Source: [Chlorobium] sp. 445
GTDB lineage: Bacteria > Bacteroidota > Chlorobiia > Chlorobiales > Thermochlorobacteraceae
Assembly (NCBI GenBank): GCA_002763895.1
Contig: NSLH01000013.1
Location: 1-64,000 of the forward strand
Reading direction: 5' to 3'
Length of the DNA: 64,000 bases
Shown: in pieces, positions 6,071 to 13,376 of the stretch
Layout: every line of letters starts with the position of its first letter
How positions within the stretch are numbered: position 1 is the stretch's first letter
Notes under the pieces: generated by a model
The model's input: only the letters and a program-made list of their open reading frames with translations
Database searches by the model: none
What the model was told of the DNA's origin: nothing
Position numbers and translations under genes: made by a program

Positions 6071-7999
6071 ATGGAATCTGTGCAAACTTTCCTTAGAGGT
6101 GTTGCGCCATTCTCACTCCTAAGTGATAAAGAACTTGAGGAATTAGGCAAGAAACTGCTCATTGAATTTTTCCCGAAAGATACGCTGATTTTGCGGCGCG
6201 ATGTCGACAAAGCTGAGTTTGTCTATGTCGTGCGCAAAGGCGCGGTGCACATTACGCGGGGTATTGCTGACGAAAATGAACGCTTGGTCAGCATCTGTGG
6301 TGAAAAGGACATCTTCGGTGTCTCATCTGTGCTCGAAAACGAAGCCTTTGTCTTCAATGCGAAGACAAGTCAAGACACGATTTGCTATCTTTTGCCAAAA
6401 GAGGATTTCAAGGCTTTGCTAAGTAAGCATAAAGCGCTCGCTGATTTTTTCTCATCCCAACTCTCGGTCTCACTGGCTAATGCGTATCTAGAAGGTACGC
6501 TTCGGCTCGCGCAGCGCAAGTCTACGGATGAACTCTCCTTGCTTTACAATCCGATTCGCAGTTTAATAAAGCGCAGCCCAGTGGTGTGTCCGCCTGAACT
6601 CTCCGTGCGTGAAGCTGCGGAAGTGATGACCTTAGAGCGTATCGGCTCAATTGTCGTTGTCGACGAACAGCGTCGCCCAATTGGGATTCTGACGGATACA
6701 GATATGCGCGCAAAAATCGTAGCGAAAAATATCCCGACCGATACCCCAATCTCGAAGGTGATGTCTTCACCTGTCATAACAATTGACGCTGAACAAAGCA
6801 TCTTGGATGGTCTGATGCTGATGACACGGCGACGCATCCATCATCTTTGCGTGACGGAATCGCAGGGCGCAACGGAACAGTTCCTAGGCCTTGTCTCTAA
6901 GCACGATTTGGTGCTCTTGCATGGCATTAGTCCCGTTGCTGCAGTCAAGAACTTAGAGTCGCAGCAAAACGTGCAAGGGTTGCTCGAGACACGGACACAG
7001 ATGGATGCAGTCATTGATTCGCTGATTTCGCAAGGTATTCGCGCTAGAAAACTCACGGAAATTATCACGGCATTCAACGACAAACTGACCGAGAAACTGC
7101 TTGAGTTTGCCATGCAACGCATGCAAGAGCAAGGTGAAGGCACGCCACCTTTGCCTTTTGCATGGATGGCGCTGGGCAGCGAGGGGCGTAAAGAACAAAC
7201 CACTGCCACCGATCAAGACAATGCAATTGTCTTTGAGAATACATCAGACAGTGAGCGTGCCAAAGCCTATTTCTTGAAAATGGCAGAGTTCGTGGTCAAT
7301 GACTTAGAGCAGTGTGGGTTCCCAAAGTGCAAAGGATTTATTATGGCGACCACACCAGAGTGGTGCGTCTCGCTCAATGAGTGGAAGCAACATTTTCGCA
7401 AGTGGGTACATTCTGCGCACCCGAAAGCCTTATTGCACTCGACCATCTTTTTAGATTTCCGTGCCCTCTATGGCAAAACAGAACTGATTGATGCACTCTA
7501 TGACACACTCTTCAAAGAAATAGACCAAGCACCCAACTTTCTCTTTTTCATGACGCAGAATGCACTGCGCACAAAGCCGCCGATTGGCTTCTTCGGTACA
7601 TTCGTAGTGGAATCGTCAGGTGAGAACAAGCACAAGTTTAATCTCAAAGAACGCGCCTTGCGCCCGCTGATTGATTCAGCTCGGATTCTTTCGCTGGCAG
7701 CACGCGTAGCAGAAACTTCGACGGTAAAGCGGCTTAGCCTTGCTAAAGAACAGGGGCTGTTGCGCGAGGCACTGCTTGAAAATGCCATCGAAGCCTTTGA
7801 TTACCTGATGACCTTACGCCTGACACATCATAGCCGGCAGCGGCAAATAGGCAAAACGCCTGATAACTTTATTGACCCTGACGATCTTTCTGCAATTGAG
7901 CGTAACGCAGTCAAAGAAGCCTTTCGTGTCATTGAAGAACTGCAAGCAGAACTGCGCGATAAGTTTGGCGGCGGCAGAGAAGTGCAACTCTATGAATAA
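6071..7999 (+). CDS. cNMP-binding / CBS / DUF294 nucleotidyltransferase-like regulator
   Basis: A 642-residue cytosolic protein with four recognisable modules: a cyclic nucleotide-binding fold (about 10-130), two CBS domains (about 165-285, including SIVVVDEQRRPIGILTDTD), a DUF294 nucleotidyltransferase-like domain with GSEGRKEQT and TDQDNA near residues 366-382, and the DUF294 C-terminal helical domain (about 490-630). The TDQD motif keeps the acidic pair expected for metal and nucleotide binding, so activity is possible. In many bacteria this protein is encoded beside a DEDDh exonuclease and the DUF4212/VC_2705-type symporter, as it is here. It is inferred to sense nucleotides and control uptake. 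Confidence 0.9.
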   Translation: MESVQTFLRGVAPFSLLSDKELEELGKKLLIEFFPKDTLILRRDVDKAEFVYVVRKGAVHITRGIADENERLVSICGEKDIFGVSSVLENEAFVFNAKTSQDTICYLLPKEDFKALLSKHKALADFFSSQLSVSLANAYLEGTLRLAQRKSTDELSLLYNPIRSLIKRSPVVCPPELSVREAAEVMTLERIGSIVVVDEQRRPIGILTDTDMRAKIVAKNIPTDTPISKVMSSPVITIDAEQSILDGLMLMTRRRIHHLCVTESQGATEQFLGLVSKHDLVLLHGISPVAAVKNLESQQNVQGLLETRTQMDAVIDSLISQGIRARKLTEIITAFNDKLTEKLLEFAMQRMQEQGEGTPPLPFAWMALGSEGRKEQTTATDQDNAIVFENTSDSERAKAYFLKMAEFVVNDLEQCGFPKCKGFIMATTPEWCVSLNEWKQHFRKWVHSAHPKALLHSTIFLDFRALYGKTELIDALYDTLFKEIDQAPNFLFFMTQNALRTKPPIGFFGTFVVESSGENKHKFNLKERALRPLIDSARILSLAARVAETSTVKRLSLAKEQGLLREALLENAIEAFDYLMTLRLTHHSRQRQIGKTPDNFIDPDDLSAIERNAVKEAFRVIEELQAELRDKFGGGREVQLYE

Positions 8000-8071
8000 C
8001 TGACATAAAGCTACACGCATGAGCAAGACTTGTCGTACAATGCAAGAAAGTACAAGCACAAATTCAAGCCG

Positions 8072-8785
8072 ATGAAGTGGATAAAACAACTCTTTGCACG
8101 CAAACAATCAGCGGTTGAGCTCCCTGATAATGTGGCACCGTATTTCAATGCCGAGTTACCTTCAAAAAAATTGCCAATTGATACCTTGCGGTTTGTTGTC
8201 GTCGATACAGAAACCACAGGCTTGAATCCTGCAAAAGGCGATCGGTTGCTTTCTATTGGTGCTGTTGCTATTGAAGGACTGCGTGTGGATTTGAGCCAGA
8301 TCTTTTTTGAGAAAATTTACTGCGAAAGACATTCCCCGCCAGAGACAATCGCCGTGCATCTGATCACACCAGAGGAAAGCCGTCATGCACCGCATCCCTC
8401 GGAAGTGTTACCCAAATTTTTGTCCTTCATTCAAAGTGATGTACTGATTGCGCATCATGCCCGTTTTGACTTAGCATTTTTGAATGCAGAACTTCAGCAT
8501 CACTATGGCAGAGACTTACGCAATTATTGCCTTGATACAATTGACCTAGCACATTTTTTAGCTAGTACCAATCAATCTTCTGAATATCTCGGCTTGAATC
8601 CGAGGCAGATGGAAGAGTATGAGTTAGGCAGACTTGCAGCTTCGTTGAATATACCTGTTGAAACGCGCCATGATGCACTCAACGATGCAATTACCACAGC
8701 GCAAGTTGCAGCTGTCTTGCTCAAACGCTTAACCAGAGCAGGTGTCTTGACACTGCAAGATTTGCTCTATCTTTCCCGCATTTAA
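8072..8785 (+). CDS. DEDDh 3'-5' exonuclease (DNA polymerase III epsilon-like)
   Basis: A 237-residue exonuclease of the DnaQ fold. All three Exo motifs are visible: Exo I VVDTETTGL, Exo II HHARFDLAFLN, and Exo III RHDALNDA with the catalytic His and Asp. I chose the ATG at 8072 (MKWIKQLFARKQ); the frame also extends to a TTG at 8030. It follows the CBS/DUF294 gene by about 70 bases on the same strand. The pairing of this exonuclease type with DUF294 and the symporter genes recurs across bacteria, so it is probably not the replicative proofreading subunit. Its real substrate, perhaps a signalling oligonucleotide, is unknown. Confidence 0.88.
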   Translation: MKWIKQLFARKQSAVELPDNVAPYFNAELPSKKLPIDTLRFVVVDTETTGLNPAKGDRLLSIGAVAIEGLRVDLSQIFFEKIYCERHSPPETIAVHLITPEESRHAPHPSEVLPKFLSFIQSDVLIAHHARFDLAFLNAELQHHYGRDLRNYCLDTIDLAHFLASTNQSSEYLGLNPRQMEEYELGRLAASLNIPVETRHDALNDAITTAQVAAVLLKRLTRAGVLTLQDLLYLSRI

Positions 8786-8833
8786 TCTGCCCCAAGCACG
8801 CACACATCACATTATTACCATTTGGTTAAGGAC

Positions 8834-8860
8834 TTGACAGATAACAAAAAAGTGTTATTT
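8834..8860 (+). promoter_or_regulatory. Candidate promoter with operator-like inverted repeat
   Basis: TTGACA at 8834-8839 matches a -35 hexamer, followed by a possible -10 TTATTT at 8855-8860 (15-base spacing, shorter than ideal). Between and overlapping them is a perfect inverted repeat ATAACA (8841-8846) / TGTTAT (8853-8858), placed where a repressor or activator dimer would sit. It lies about 370 bases upstream of the symporter operon start codon. The -10 assignment is weak. Confidence 0.4.
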
Positions 8861-9206
8861 TCCTTTCAAACAAAACAACAAGACGACGAAGCGACAAGCT
8901 AGTTTTGAATAACTAGCACGACTAAAAATTAGCTTAGTCCGCTAAACAAACAGGCTTTTCTGAACAAAATTTCGCAATCTGCAAAACAGTGTTGTTCCTT
9001 GTCAAGGCAGAACTGCCTGTATGGATTTGTCTTTAGCGGCAAAGCAATTTGCTGGTTTAGAAGCATGCGAGCATACTCACACTGAGGTGATGCTTCTGTC
9101 TAACTCTGTCGAACAATTTGTTCATAAAAGACTTTCATGAGAGCATTTATACTTTTTTACCTTTTTTACTTTTTTCTTTCATAAACAGAACAACAGGAGG
9201 CAAATC
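8861..9206 (+). promoter_or_regulatory. Long structured leader of the symporter operon
   Basis: No gene is seen between 8786 and 9206. The segment holds a series of inverted repeats: 8898-8904/8911-8917 (7 bp), GACTAA/TTAGTC at 8920-8925/8934-8939, a long-range CCGCTAAA/TTTAGCGG at 8939-8946/9032-9039, AGGCA/TGCCT at 9005-9009/9014-9018, and AGAAGCAT/ATGCTTCT at 9059-9066/9090-9097. A pyrimidine-rich stretch (9150-9179) then leads to a perfect AGGAGG before the ATG at 9207. I do not recognise a known riboswitch class. It may be a cis-regulatory leader or contain a separate small RNA. Confidence 0.5.
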
Positions 9207-9557
9207 ATGCAAGAGACAAAAGATAAATCTCAAACTCAGAGTGAAGCCATAGATATGTCGGCAGAGCTCGAGGAGTTTGAACGCTCGGGACAACTCTCTC
9301 AGGAGCAGTTACAGAATTACTGGAAAGAGAACCGCAATCTTGTGCTGACGCTCTTAGCAATCTGGGCAGCATCATCATTTCTGGTTCAACTGTTTGCATC
9401 AGCGCTCAACAACATTGTGATTGTGGGTTTTCCACTTGCCTACTACATGGGCGGACAAGGGACACTCATCATCTTCATGGTGTTGATTTATGTCTATGCT
9501 AAGAAGATGAATGAACTGGATGCAAAGTATAAACTGCAAGAGGAGGATGAGAAATGA
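9207..9557 (+). CDS. DUF4212 small subunit of sodium/solute symporter
   Basis: A 116-residue protein with an acidic N-terminal tail and two membrane helices (about residues 47-70 and 82-105). The N-x-K-x-x-x-x-x-L region YWKENRNLVLTLLAIW is the hallmark of DUF4212, the short partner encoded just before the VC_2705-type large symporter subunit. The start is fixed by AGGAGG seven bases upstream of ATG 9207. The stop overlaps the start of the large subunit by four bases (ATGA), so the two are translationally coupled and probably assemble in the inner membrane. Confidence 0.92.
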   Translation: MQETKDKSQTQSEAIDMSAELEEFERSGQLSQEQLQNYWKENRNLVLTLLAIWAASSFLVQLFASALNNIVIVGFPLAYYMGGQGTLIIFMVLIYVYAKKMNELDAKYKLQEEDEK

Positions 9558-11782
9558 AACTCAAGAACATCTTCACGCTCTACACGGCGGGTTTTGCGGG
9601 TTTGGTTGTCATATTAGGTATTTTGGAAGCCTCCAATGTGTTGCAATTGCAAAGCATCAGCTGGATTTTCATGGGTTTTTCGGTTCTGGTGTATGCCTTA
9701 ATTGGTTTTGTGACGCGCACAAGCGACCCCTCGGAGTATTATGTGGCGGGTCGTGGTGTGAATAGTATCTACAACGGCATGGCAACAGGTTCAGACTGGA
9801 TGAGTGCTGCATCGTTCATTTCCATGGCGGGTCTGCTCTTTGCGTTAGGGCATGCAGGACTTGCTTACATTGTGGGTTGGACAGGGGGCTATGTATTGCT
9901 GGCGCTTCTGCTGGCGCCTTACCTACGCAAGTTTGGTCAATACACGATTCCTGACTTTTTGGGAGCGCGCTACGATGGAAATGTGGCGCGCACAATTGGC
10001 ATCATCTGTGCTATCATCGTCTCCTTCACCTACCTGACGGCACAACTGACGGGGGTGGGTTTGATTGTCAGTCGCTTTATTGGATTGCCACAGGATATTG
10101 GAATCTATGTTGGATTATTGGGTGTGCTGGTTTGTTCGTTCTTGGGTGGCATGAGAGCGGTAACATGGACGCAAGTGGCGCAGTACATCGTGCTCATCAC
10201 AGCTTATCTCATTCCGGTGGTAGTACTCTCCACAGCGATTTTCAAAGTACCTCTACCGCAACTGACCTACGGTCAAGTCTTGCAGAGCATTACTGTAATG
10301 GAGAATCAGATTGCGGGCAGAGACACCCCCAATTTGCAGAACATTCCTGAGGAGCGGCTCAACAAGCGCATTGATCCCGAAAAAGAAAAAGAAACGCGAG
10401 CCTTGTGGGCAAATGATGTCAAGATGCTGACGGCGCGTCTATCCAATCCAGACTCTGCACTGCAAGCGATGCGTGCAAGTATTGACCAGCGTCTGGCGGC
10501 ACTTGCACCTGAGGCAGTTGAGGCAAAGAAGGCGGCACTTGAAAAAGAGAAAGCGGATATCAATGCGATGCTCAATGCGGCAGCGCCCACACAGGTGCTT
10601 GATGAAGCCAAGCGTGCTGAACTGACGGCGCGACTTTCCACGCTGGATAAAGAGCTTGCAGCACTTGCACCTGAAGCGGTTGCTAATGCCAAAGAGAAAG
10701 CGGAAAAAGAAAAGGCGGCATTGCCCAAAGATGTTGAAGATGCCAAGGCGAAATGGACGGCGGCACTGAACACTGCAAAAGCGCAATCTGCACCGCCCAA
10801 GCCTTACCTTGCCATTCCTGAAGGCATCGGTATGGTCAATTTCTTAGGGCTCATTTTCTGCTTGATGATTGGGACAGCGGGATTGCCCCACATTCTTACG
10901 CGTTACTACACGACCCCCAGTGTCAAGCAAGCACGCGCGTCAGTAGGCTGGTCGCTCTTTTTCATTTTCTTGCTCTATTTTACGGCGCCTGCCTATGCCG
11001 CGTTTGCCAAGTATGAGGTTTTCATCAATCTTGTTGGCACGCCAATTAGTGAATTGCCAGGCTGGATTGCACGCTGGAAAATTGTTGGGTTGTTTGATGT
11101 GGTAGATAAGAATGGGGATGGCATTGTGCAATTTGCAGACTTTGTTATCAAATCCACAGACTTTGTGGTGTTGGCGACGCCTGAGATTGCAAATTTGCCA
11201 GGCACGGTTACGGGTCTTGTGATGGCTGGTGGTTTAGCGGCCGCGCTGTCTACGGCAGATGGACTTTTGCTGACAATTTCCAATGCGATTTCACATGATT
11301 TGTATTACAAGATTATCAATCCGCAAGCCTCGGTGAGTGCACGCGTGTGGATATCAAAGATTTTGTTGGTAGTGATTGCGTTAGGGGCGGCCACGTTTGC
11401 AGCGTTTGTGAAGTTGCCTGTCATTGCAAACACGGTGGCGTGGGCGTTTAGTTATGCGGCGTCGTCGATTTTCCCAGCGTTAGTGCTTGGCATTTGGTGG
11501 CGTCGGACCACGGCAGCTGGGGCAGTAGCGGGGATGATTGTGGGGTTGGTCATCTCAATCTACTATTCGTTTGCGCACTTCAATGGGGCAGCAAATTGGT
11601 TTGGGATTGACAACCGCAGTGCAGGCCTCTTCGGTGTGCCAGCCGCATTCATCGTCATGATTGTGGTATCGCTGCTTACCCCTGAACCTGATAAGAAACT
11701 TCAGGAATTTGTCTACAGTGTTCGCTTCCCCAAAGGTGCAATGAAAGGCAAAGAAGTCGAAGCCCTCGGCTCCACATCTTGA
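9554..11782 (+). CDS. Sodium:solute symporter large subunit (VC_2705/ActP-like) with coiled-coil insertion
   Basis: A 742-residue inner-membrane member of the SSS family, closest in layout to the VC_2705 subfamily that pairs with DUF4212. Conserved parts include SEYYVAGRGVNSIYNGMA, SFISMAGLLFA, GTAGLPHILTRYYT and LAAALSTADGLLLTI. Residues about 245-415 form a soluble, Ala/Lys/Glu-rich coiled-coil insertion with two copies of an LAALAPEAV repeat, making it longer than usual family members. Residues 518-529 (DKNGDGIVQFAD) match an EF-hand-type calcium loop, with Asp in place of Glu at the last position. The substrate is probably a short organic acid such as acetate, but this is inferred from relatives. 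Confidence 0.9.
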   Translation: MKLKNIFTLYTAGFAGLVVILGILEASNVLQLQSISWIFMGFSVLVYALIGFVTRTSDPSEYYVAGRGVNSIYNGMATGSDWMSAASFISMAGLLFALGHAGLAYIVGWTGGYVLLALLLAPYLRKFGQYTIPDFLGARYDGNVARTIGIICAIIVSFTYLTAQLTGVGLIVSRFIGLPQDIGIYVGLLGVLVCSFLGGMRAVTWTQVAQYIVLITAYLIPVVVLSTAIFKVPLPQLTYGQVLQSITVMENQIAGRDTPNLQNIPEERLNKRIDPEKEKETRALWANDVKMLTARLSNPDSALQAMRASIDQRLAALAPEAVEAKKAALEKEKADINAMLNAAAPTQVLDEAKRAELTARLSTLDKELAALAPEAVANAKEKAEKEKAALPKDVEDAKAKWTAALNTAKAQSAPPKPYLAIPEGIGMVNFLGLIFCLMIGTAGLPHILTRYYTTPSVKQARASVGWSLFFIFLLYFTAPAYAAFAKYEVFINLVGTPISELPGWIARWKIVGLFDVVDKNGDGIVQFADFVIKSTDFVVLATPEIANLPGTVTGLVMAGGLAAALSTADGLLLTISNAISHDLYYKIINPQASVSARVWISKILLVVIALGAATFAAFVKLPVIANTVAWAFSYAASSIFPALVLGIWWRRTTAAGAVAGMIVGLVISIYYSFAHFNGAANWFGIDNRSAGLFGVPAAFIVMIVVSLLTPEPDKKLQEFVYSVRFPKGAMKGKEVEALGSTS

Positions 11783-11795
11783 TTTATGCTTTGCT

Positions 11796-11832
11796 AAGGC
11801 GCGCACACGCGCGCCTTGCATTGCTTTTTTTT
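11796..11832 (+). terminator. Rho-independent terminator after the symporter gene
   Basis: A perfect 9-bp stem AAGGCGCGC (11796-11804), loop ACAC, GCGCGCCTT (11809-11817), with further TGC/GCA pairing just outside. A run of eight T follows at 11825-11832. It separates the symporter operon from the porin gene, so the porin is either separately transcribed or reached by partial read-through. Confidence 0.85.
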
Positions 11833-11897
11833 GCTATCAACAGACAAAAAAACTTTTCAACTATCCAGTAACAACAAAACCATACAAGGAGACTATA

Positions 11898-13376
11898 ATG
11901 AGAAGATTATGCTACAGCTTGGTAGCACTAACATGTTTGTGCACCCTCTCTGCACAAGCCTTTGCCCAAGGCTCTGACACTTACGGCGTAGGAGCACGCT
12001 TCAACTTGGATTCTTTGGGCACCAAATATATCCGCTTCATTACCTGGCTTCAAATGTGGACACGCTTTCAAGAGCAGAATCCGGGCACAGTTATCAACGG
12101 TAACCCCGTCGATAACTTTTTTGATGTGGGTATCAGACGCGCACGGTTTCTTGCCTATGGCTCATTCGGAAAGGGCAGTCTCTTCATGTTCCACATCGGT
12201 ATCAATAACCAAACTTTCATTAATGCACAAACAGCTGGCAACGACCCTACAGGTCCTGCTAAGCGACCGCAACCATTCATTCACGATGTTTGGTATGAGC
12301 AACGCATCATTCCTGAACTCTACATCGGCTTCGGCTTAGCCTACTGGAAGGGACTTTCACGCATGACTAACACTAGTACACTGAACTTTTTAGGCATAGA
12401 CTCACCCATTTTCTCATGGCTTGTCATTGATGCAAGCGATCAGTTTGCCCGCATGCCGTCAATCTATATCAAAGGACAACTCTTTGAGAAACGCTTGGAC
12501 TATCGACTTGCTGTCAACCAACCATTTAGACCCGGAGCAGGAATTGCACCAACAACGAGTACTATCACGGCTGGAGGCACAACCACAGCAGGGCAACTGA
12601 CAAATGTGGCAAATTATAACCCCTTCTTCATGCAGAAATCATTTGAAGGCTATTTCTTCTGGCAATTCTTCGATATTGAATCACAGGTGCTGCCCTTTAT
12701 GGTCGGTAACTACTTAGGCACGAAACGCGTCTTCAATATCGGCGCAGGCTTTTATTATCATGGTGACGGAATGTCTACGCGAAAAGCCCCAAACTCTCGT
12801 ACGCCCGAGGTACAAGACCTGACGAAAGACTCCCTAAATACTCACGCTATTGCAGCATTTGGTGTGGATGCCTTCCTAGATTTGCCGATTGGTGAAGGCG
12901 CATCACGCAGTTCATTGACAGCATACGCACTCTTTGCCCGCTATGACTTCGGACCGAACAATATCCGCTATATTGGGATTATGAACATGGGAGCTGGGTT
13001 TAGCCCACAGACTTCCACTCCTGAACAGCGCATTGCAGGCTTAACAGGTATTGCCTATCCACTAATCGGTACAGGCAATCACTTCTTTGTACAAGCCGGC
13101 TATACTTTCCCAAAAACAGAAATCGGCAGATTTACGCCTTACTTTATGTTTACCTTCTCACAGTTCGATCGCCTCAAAGACCCCATGATTTTGCCTGAAC
13201 TAGGCTTGAATTACTTCATTGATGGTCATCATGCAAAGTTTACACTGCACTATCGCTTGCGTCCAACCTATCGTCAAGAAGTAACTGCACCATTTACAGG
13301 ACCTGATGGCTTGCCAGCAATTACAAGAGATGGTAGCAAAAATGAGTTTATCTTGCAATCTATGGTGTATTTTTAA
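11898..13376 (+). CDS. Outer-membrane porin-like beta-barrel protein
   Basis: A 492-residue protein with a clear signal peptide (LTCLCTLSAQAFAQ, cleavage near residue 24) and alternating aromatic strands throughout, ending in aromatic MVYF as outer-membrane barrels do. The N-terminal part (YIRFITWLQMWTRFQEQNPG, RRARFLAYGSFG) resembles phosphate-selective porin O/P-like proteins of Bacteroidota. AAGGAGA lies upstream of ATG 11898. Its position right after the symporter suggests it admits the same solute across the outer membrane, but the specificity is not visible. Confidence 0.82.
   Translation: MRRLCYSLVALTCLCTLSAQAFAQGSDTYGVGARFNLDSLGTKYIRFITWLQMWTRFQEQNPGTVINGNPVDNFFDVGIRRARFLAYGSFGKGSLFMFHIGINNQTFINAQTAGNDPTGPAKRPQPFIHDVWYEQRIIPELYIGFGLAYWKGLSRMTNTSTLNFLGIDSPIFSWLVIDASDQFARMPSIYIKGQLFEKRLDYRLAVNQPFRPGAGIAPTTSTITAGGTTTAGQLTNVANYNPFFMQKSFEGYFFWQFFDIESQVLPFMVGNYLGTKRVFNIGAGFYYHGDGMSTRKAPNSRTPEVQDLTKDSLNTHAIAAFGVDAFLDLPIGEGASRSSLTAYALFARYDFGPNNIRYIGIMNMGAGFSPQTSTPEQRIAGLTGIAYPLIGTGNHFFVQAGYTFPKTEIGRFTPYFMFTFSQFDRLKDPMILPELGLNYFIDGHHAKFTLHYRLRPTYRQEVTAPFTGPDGLPAITRDGSKNEFILQSMVYF

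Follow-up and report, generated by a model that had tools for sequence, protein, structure and literature searches.

The symporter encoded in the window (the whole 64,000-nt stretch of [Chlorobium] sp. 445 DNA that we analyzed) probably carries a folded, extracytoplasmic helical domain in external loop 3 (EL3) of a LeuT-fold, Na+:monocarboxylate-type transporter, a domain that marks one subclade of the VC_2705 family, hereafter clade B, and whose helical hairpin was duplicated in the window's own family. The position of the domain, its homology to a betaproteobacterial counterpart, the duplication, and the predicted fold were all established by computation, and the topology of the transporter would place the domain in the periplasm.

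A helical domain between core TM6 and TM7

The gene at 9554..11782 (all coordinates refer to the forward strand) encodes a 742-aa large subunit of the VC_2705-type (TIGR03648) sodium/solute symporters, matching the full TIGR03648 profile (positions 2-547 of 547; E 8.8e-217; 720.9 bits against a cut-off of 320.75). Its AlphaFold2 model, built from 62 aligned sequences, had a mean pLDDT of 90.3, and in Foldseek searches the core matched the SSF structures SGLT2, CHT1, SiaT, NIS, and vSGLT (E 2.4e-12 to 6e-9), so that the modeled core is of the SSF/LeuT fold. An S-T pair, S566 and T567, which we take to lie at the sodium site in SSF proteins, is conserved in the clade B alignment. The start of the gene overlaps by four bases the preceding gene, which encodes the 116-aa small subunit (DUF4212/TIGR03647; 9207..9557; TIGR03647 E 3.9e-26, PF13937 E 4.8e-27). 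Pfam SSF covers the symporter piecewise, leaving residues 225-433 unmatched.

Within this gap, the loop joining core TM6 and TM7 is 199 aa long (residues 232 to 430), compared with 39 to 51 aa in ordinary members, an excess of roughly 155 residues. The inserted domain itself spans residues 245-421 (10286..10816). Residues 246-415 (10289-10798) are hydrophilic and rich in Ala, Lys, and Glu (39, 19, and 18 of 176, respectively), with 28 basic residues (K+R) and 28 acidic ones (D+E), and contain no Cys, His, or Phe. AlphaFold2 places seven helices between core TM6 and TM7 (residues 235-254, 275-297, 299-316, 319-341, 351-369, 373-388, and 394-412), the last six at a pLDDT of approximately 95 to 98, with the tip at residues 342-350 less certain; modeled alone, the insert adopts the same fold as within the whole symporter. 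An earlier, sequence-only reading of this DNA, which had described residues 245-415 or so as an Ala/Glu/Lys-rich helical insertion in a loop of the transporter and had called for the loop to be mapped onto a predicted structure, is therefore borne out by composition, loop length, and model alike.

Both ends of the domain are anchored by conserved residues. In the base helix, TYGQVLQSITVMENQI (residues 235-254; 10256..10315), Y239, L243, and E250 are nearly invariant across 62 sequences and the Y/L/E positions are found again in clade B proteins with either loop length, two of the short-loop ones (L203 and L204) retaining YGQA..I..E. On the returning strand, the base segment LPKDVEDAKAKWTAAL... 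(residues 390-412; 10721..10789) contributes P391, A397, and W401, and these, together with E250, E278, and L317, are nearly invariant in the same 62 sequences, while the tip varies. Given these anchors and the confident model, disorder or a low-complexity artefact was ruled out. Compared with the genus mate, the insert is 84% identical and the core 94%, so that the insert is the faster-evolving part. Where it can be estimated, its dN/dS of 0.08 to 0.11 points to purifying selection, dS being saturated.

Positive charges on the symporter loops are concentrated on the inside (19 K/R, compared with 8 outside), and SSF topology places the TM6-TM7 loop on the periplasmic side; the insert is therefore predicted to be periplasmic. 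The insert site would correspond to external loop 3, with core TM6-TM7 equivalent to LeuT TM5-TM6. A search of PDB structures with the insert alone returned nothing significant (best E 0.14; Foldseek), hence function could not be read from the fold. Its confident all-helical model matched hairpins of the dynein stalk, HlyD, and Smc, but only weakly; no Pfam match exceeded the cut-off, and PDB sequences returned generic coiled-coil matches only. The "coiled-coil" label given in the sequence-only reading is a possible description, compatible with the model.

Elsewhere in the symporter, the long external loop between TM8 and TM9 contains an EF-hand-like acidic stretch, DKNGDGIVQFADF (residues 516-531; 11099..11146; PF00036 E 0.056, below cut-off), in which D518, N520, and D522 of the DKNGDG loop are invariant in the clade B alignment (62 sequences). 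A DKNGDG-type motif is also present in many ordinary Bacteroidota symporters. The stretch is a possible periplasmic calcium site.

Distribution and descent of the long loop

Insert-type symporters were found in seven further genomes of the window's family, one of them represented by a contig-end fragment only, and G005 lacks one. The remainder of the order encodes a different, approximately 46%-identical symporter type with about 31 aa at the insert site. Across 297 genomes of the phylum, only the window's family had matches with a profile span greater than 600 aa. In one metagenome-assembled genome (MAG) of the window's genus (G002:C72:22771-24992), the symporter is broken into two frames, probably by an assembly frameshift.

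Beyond the phylum, all 80 of the best relatives in a GTDB-wide search (mixed alignment) carry a homologous long loop, and nearly all are Betaproteobacteria, bar one window-family member, Chloroherpetonaceae SKYG21 (MAG); among these relatives the betaproteobacterial loops measure 132 to 177 aa. Loop lengths were 197 to 213 aa in the window's family, 96 to 177 aa in the betaproteobacterial proteins, 47 to 61 aa in a short-loop branch of clade B, and 39 to 51 aa elsewhere. Counted by hand from the listed spans of full-length TIGR03648 matches, the long form accounted for about 63 of 83 full-length members in a Burkholderiales sample, and for roughly 22 of about 120 Pseudomonadota genomes with a TIGR03648 match over the cut-off. 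Among plasmid-borne relatives, the 40 best matches spanned at most 72% of the query and the long insert was not seen.

With the shared flanks trimmed, the loops of the window's family and of the Betaproteobacteria aligned by hhalign at E 9.3e-9 with a score of 53.9, while control scores reached 16.6 at most in 40 column shuffles and 11.5 for the reversed profile. These betaproteobacterial homologs rule out a recent insertion private to the window's lineage. In a core-only tree, from which the loop columns were removed, clade B received full support (100/100) and comprised the proteins with the insert together with a few short-loop ones from Pseudomonadota (L201-L204); an extra N-terminal helix was common to all clade B members examined. 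The window's family formed one branch (100/98) beside a Pseudomonadota branch (91/88); simple transfer from within the Betaproteobacteria is unsupported, since the family branches beside the betaproteobacterial group and not inside it. A topology grouping the window's family with the Betaproteobacteria to the exclusion of the short-loop branch was not rejected (p-AU 0.387), and the domain may either have had a single origin or have arisen at the base of clade B and been trimmed in one branch.

By sequence comparison, the insert is a subclade feature of the VC_2705 family, the norm in Burkholderiales and not peculiar to the window's symporter. The earlier statement that a loop of this kind is missing from the typical large subunit is true of most of the family, though not of clade B. 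The two findings that would have told against the insertion, universality in the family and predicted disorder, do not hold in full. More generally, an "insertion" recognized against the average family member can be an ordinary subclade feature.

Tandem duplication of the hairpin

The motif LAALAPEAV occurs twice in the insert, 54 aa apart, at residues 314-322 (10493..10519) and 368-376 (10655..10681), with the two copies 86% alike at the DNA level over 28 nt. Each lies at a break between two helices, where its proline starts the next helix in the AlphaFold2 model. As delimited by self-alignment and the model, the surrounding units comprise residues 303-347 (10460..10594), with parts of helices 299-316 and 319-341, and residues 357-408 (10622..10777), with parts of helices 351-369, 373-388, and 394-412. 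Aligning one half of the insert with the other gave a best score of 79, whereas 300 shuffles gave a mean of 37.3 (sd 5.9) and a maximum of 67 (p = 0.003), in agreement with the two related units beginning LAALAPEAV that the sequence-only reading had described. Within the window's family, the same comparison returned p = 0.003 for the genus mate G001 (L083) and for G007 (L081), 0.01 for G003 (L084), and marginal values of 0.07 to 0.08 for G004 (L080) and G006 (L082); no internal duplication was seen by half-versus-half alignment in six betaproteobacterial loops. Because the score exceeds all shuffles and the family members return such p-values, we consider the duplication real and clearest in the window's genus.

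With boundaries drawn by alignment to the window's model, the betaproteobacterial domain runs from a stalk helix through a hairpin with an NAPxxEI turn to a returning stalk helix. Subtracting one 54-residue repeat from the window's form leaves about 145 residues, the betaproteobacterial length. In the window's family, one helical hairpin, which LAALAPEAV marks, was duplicated in tandem, for a gain of approximately 54 residues. The basic form would be a single helical hairpin on a conserved stalk, duplicated in tandem before the window's family diversified. Orthologous units are more alike across family members (0.44-0.92) than are the two units within one protein (0.17-0.40), which places the duplication before the radiation of the family. 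In the model, the breaks at LAALAPEAV may be either hairpin turns, in which case a two-helix stalk would bear a head of four helices, or kinks in a long straight arm.

Gene neighborhood, possible roles, and known systems

Upstream of the two subunit genes (6071-8785) lie genes for a DUF294 protein, with cNMP-binding, CBS, and nucleotidyltransferase domains, and a DnaQ-like exonuclease; the order DUF294, DnaQ-like exonuclease, DUF4212, symporter also occurs in several Betaproteobacteria (e.g., L089, L100, L107, L115, and L132). Acetyl-CoA synthetase (acs) genes were found in the flanks of clade B symporters at eight loci (L127, L130, L139, L140, L144, L117, L102, and L092), directly upstream in L127, and adjoin the symporter in Cupriavidus-like genomes with a detached DUF4212 gene. 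The presence of acs beside several clade B symporters suggests an acetate-like substrate.

As to what the domain does, we tentatively propose that the arm covers the outward-facing entrance as a lid or serves there as a docking element, and that it could constrain the gate or hold either another copy of the symporter or a partner from the periplasm or outer membrane. A conserved base with a tip of variable length is as expected for such an arm and would fit it better than a passive spacer. Transport itself would not need the insert, since the short-loop branch of clade B does without it. It is rather doubtful that the insert is instead a neutrally tolerated, low-complexity helical spacer, resized by slippage or duplication and having no specific partner. 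The 47 to 213 aa range of loop length in clade B, the Ala/Lys/Glu-rich composition, and the evolution of the insert ahead of the core would all fit a spacer too, but the near-invariant residues that anchor the domain at either end in 62 sequences, a dN/dS of about 0.1, very high model confidence, and retention of the domain by most Burkholderiales members argue against it.

Specific partners for the proposed arm are harder to support. The sequence-only reading had named DUF4212 as a candidate, and its gene does overlap that of the symporter in the window and flank most clade B members, as an interface between the insert and the small subunit of a two-subunit transporter would lead one to expect. 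However, DUF4212 flanks 79 of the 82 loci examined, the majority of them short-loop, and is as faithful to members with loops of 39 to 50 aa, so the pairing needs no insert; moreover, five long-insert genomes (Cupriavidus and others) keep their single DUF4212 gene apart from the symporter, and the protein, judged by its sequence, would have no more than a short loop exposed beyond the membrane. We regard this interface as very improbable. Directly downstream of the symporter, a gene at 11898..13376 encodes a porin-like outer-membrane protein (weak ExtI porin match, E 1.8e-9). It adjoins the symporter at five loci of the window's family (L080, L081, L083, L084, and L086), where the insert is longest, and at no betaproteobacterial locus; among the loci examined, this neighbor is limited to the window's family. 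An insert reaching the outer membrane to dock this protein, and so coupling outer-membrane passage to uptake, would account for the synteny but is very improbable, given that betaproteobacterial loci have the domain yet no such porin beside them. Scarcely more probable is the broader conjecture that clade B is a transporter type whose periplasmic arm captures a partner (an outer-membrane porin, a periplasmic binding protein, or another symporter), with the duplicated hairpin lengthening the arm to fit the co-encoded porin.

Stav et al. (PMC6429828) reported a riboswitch candidate preceding TIGR03647 genes and stated that the solute carried by the associated VC_2705-type transporter was unknown; no Rfam match for a riboswitch of this type was found at 8000-12000 in the window. 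Our literature search on DUF4212 and VC_2705/TIGR03648 returned nothing on DUF4212 and no account of such an insertion.

VC_2705-type symporters are widespread, and their natural short, single-hairpin, and double-hairpin forms provide a ready series for testing external domains on LeuT-fold transporters. The usual systems of TIGR03648 with DUF4212/TIGR03647 share with the window the LeuT-fold core, the adjacent small-subunit gene, and the S-T pair. Their TM6-TM7 loop is typically, though not by definition, 39 to 51 aa long, whereas the window's symporter has some 155 extra residues there in addition to an extra N-terminal helix. Betaproteobacterial members of clade B (e.g., Tepidimonas, Polynucleobacter, Hydrogenophaga, Azoarcus, and Cupriavidus) have a homologous insert, the extra N-terminal helix, and approximately 41 to 51% full-length identity to the window's protein; unlike the window's family, they have one hairpin, in a loop of 132 to 177 aa, and lack the second, duplicated hairpin, the longer loop, and the downstream porin gene. 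As an analogy of working only, from an unrelated family and sequence, the K+-Cl- cotransporters (SLC12) are LeuT-fold proteins in which extracellular loop 3, linking core helices 5 and 6, is large, forms an ordered, folded domain, and stands over the outer entrance.
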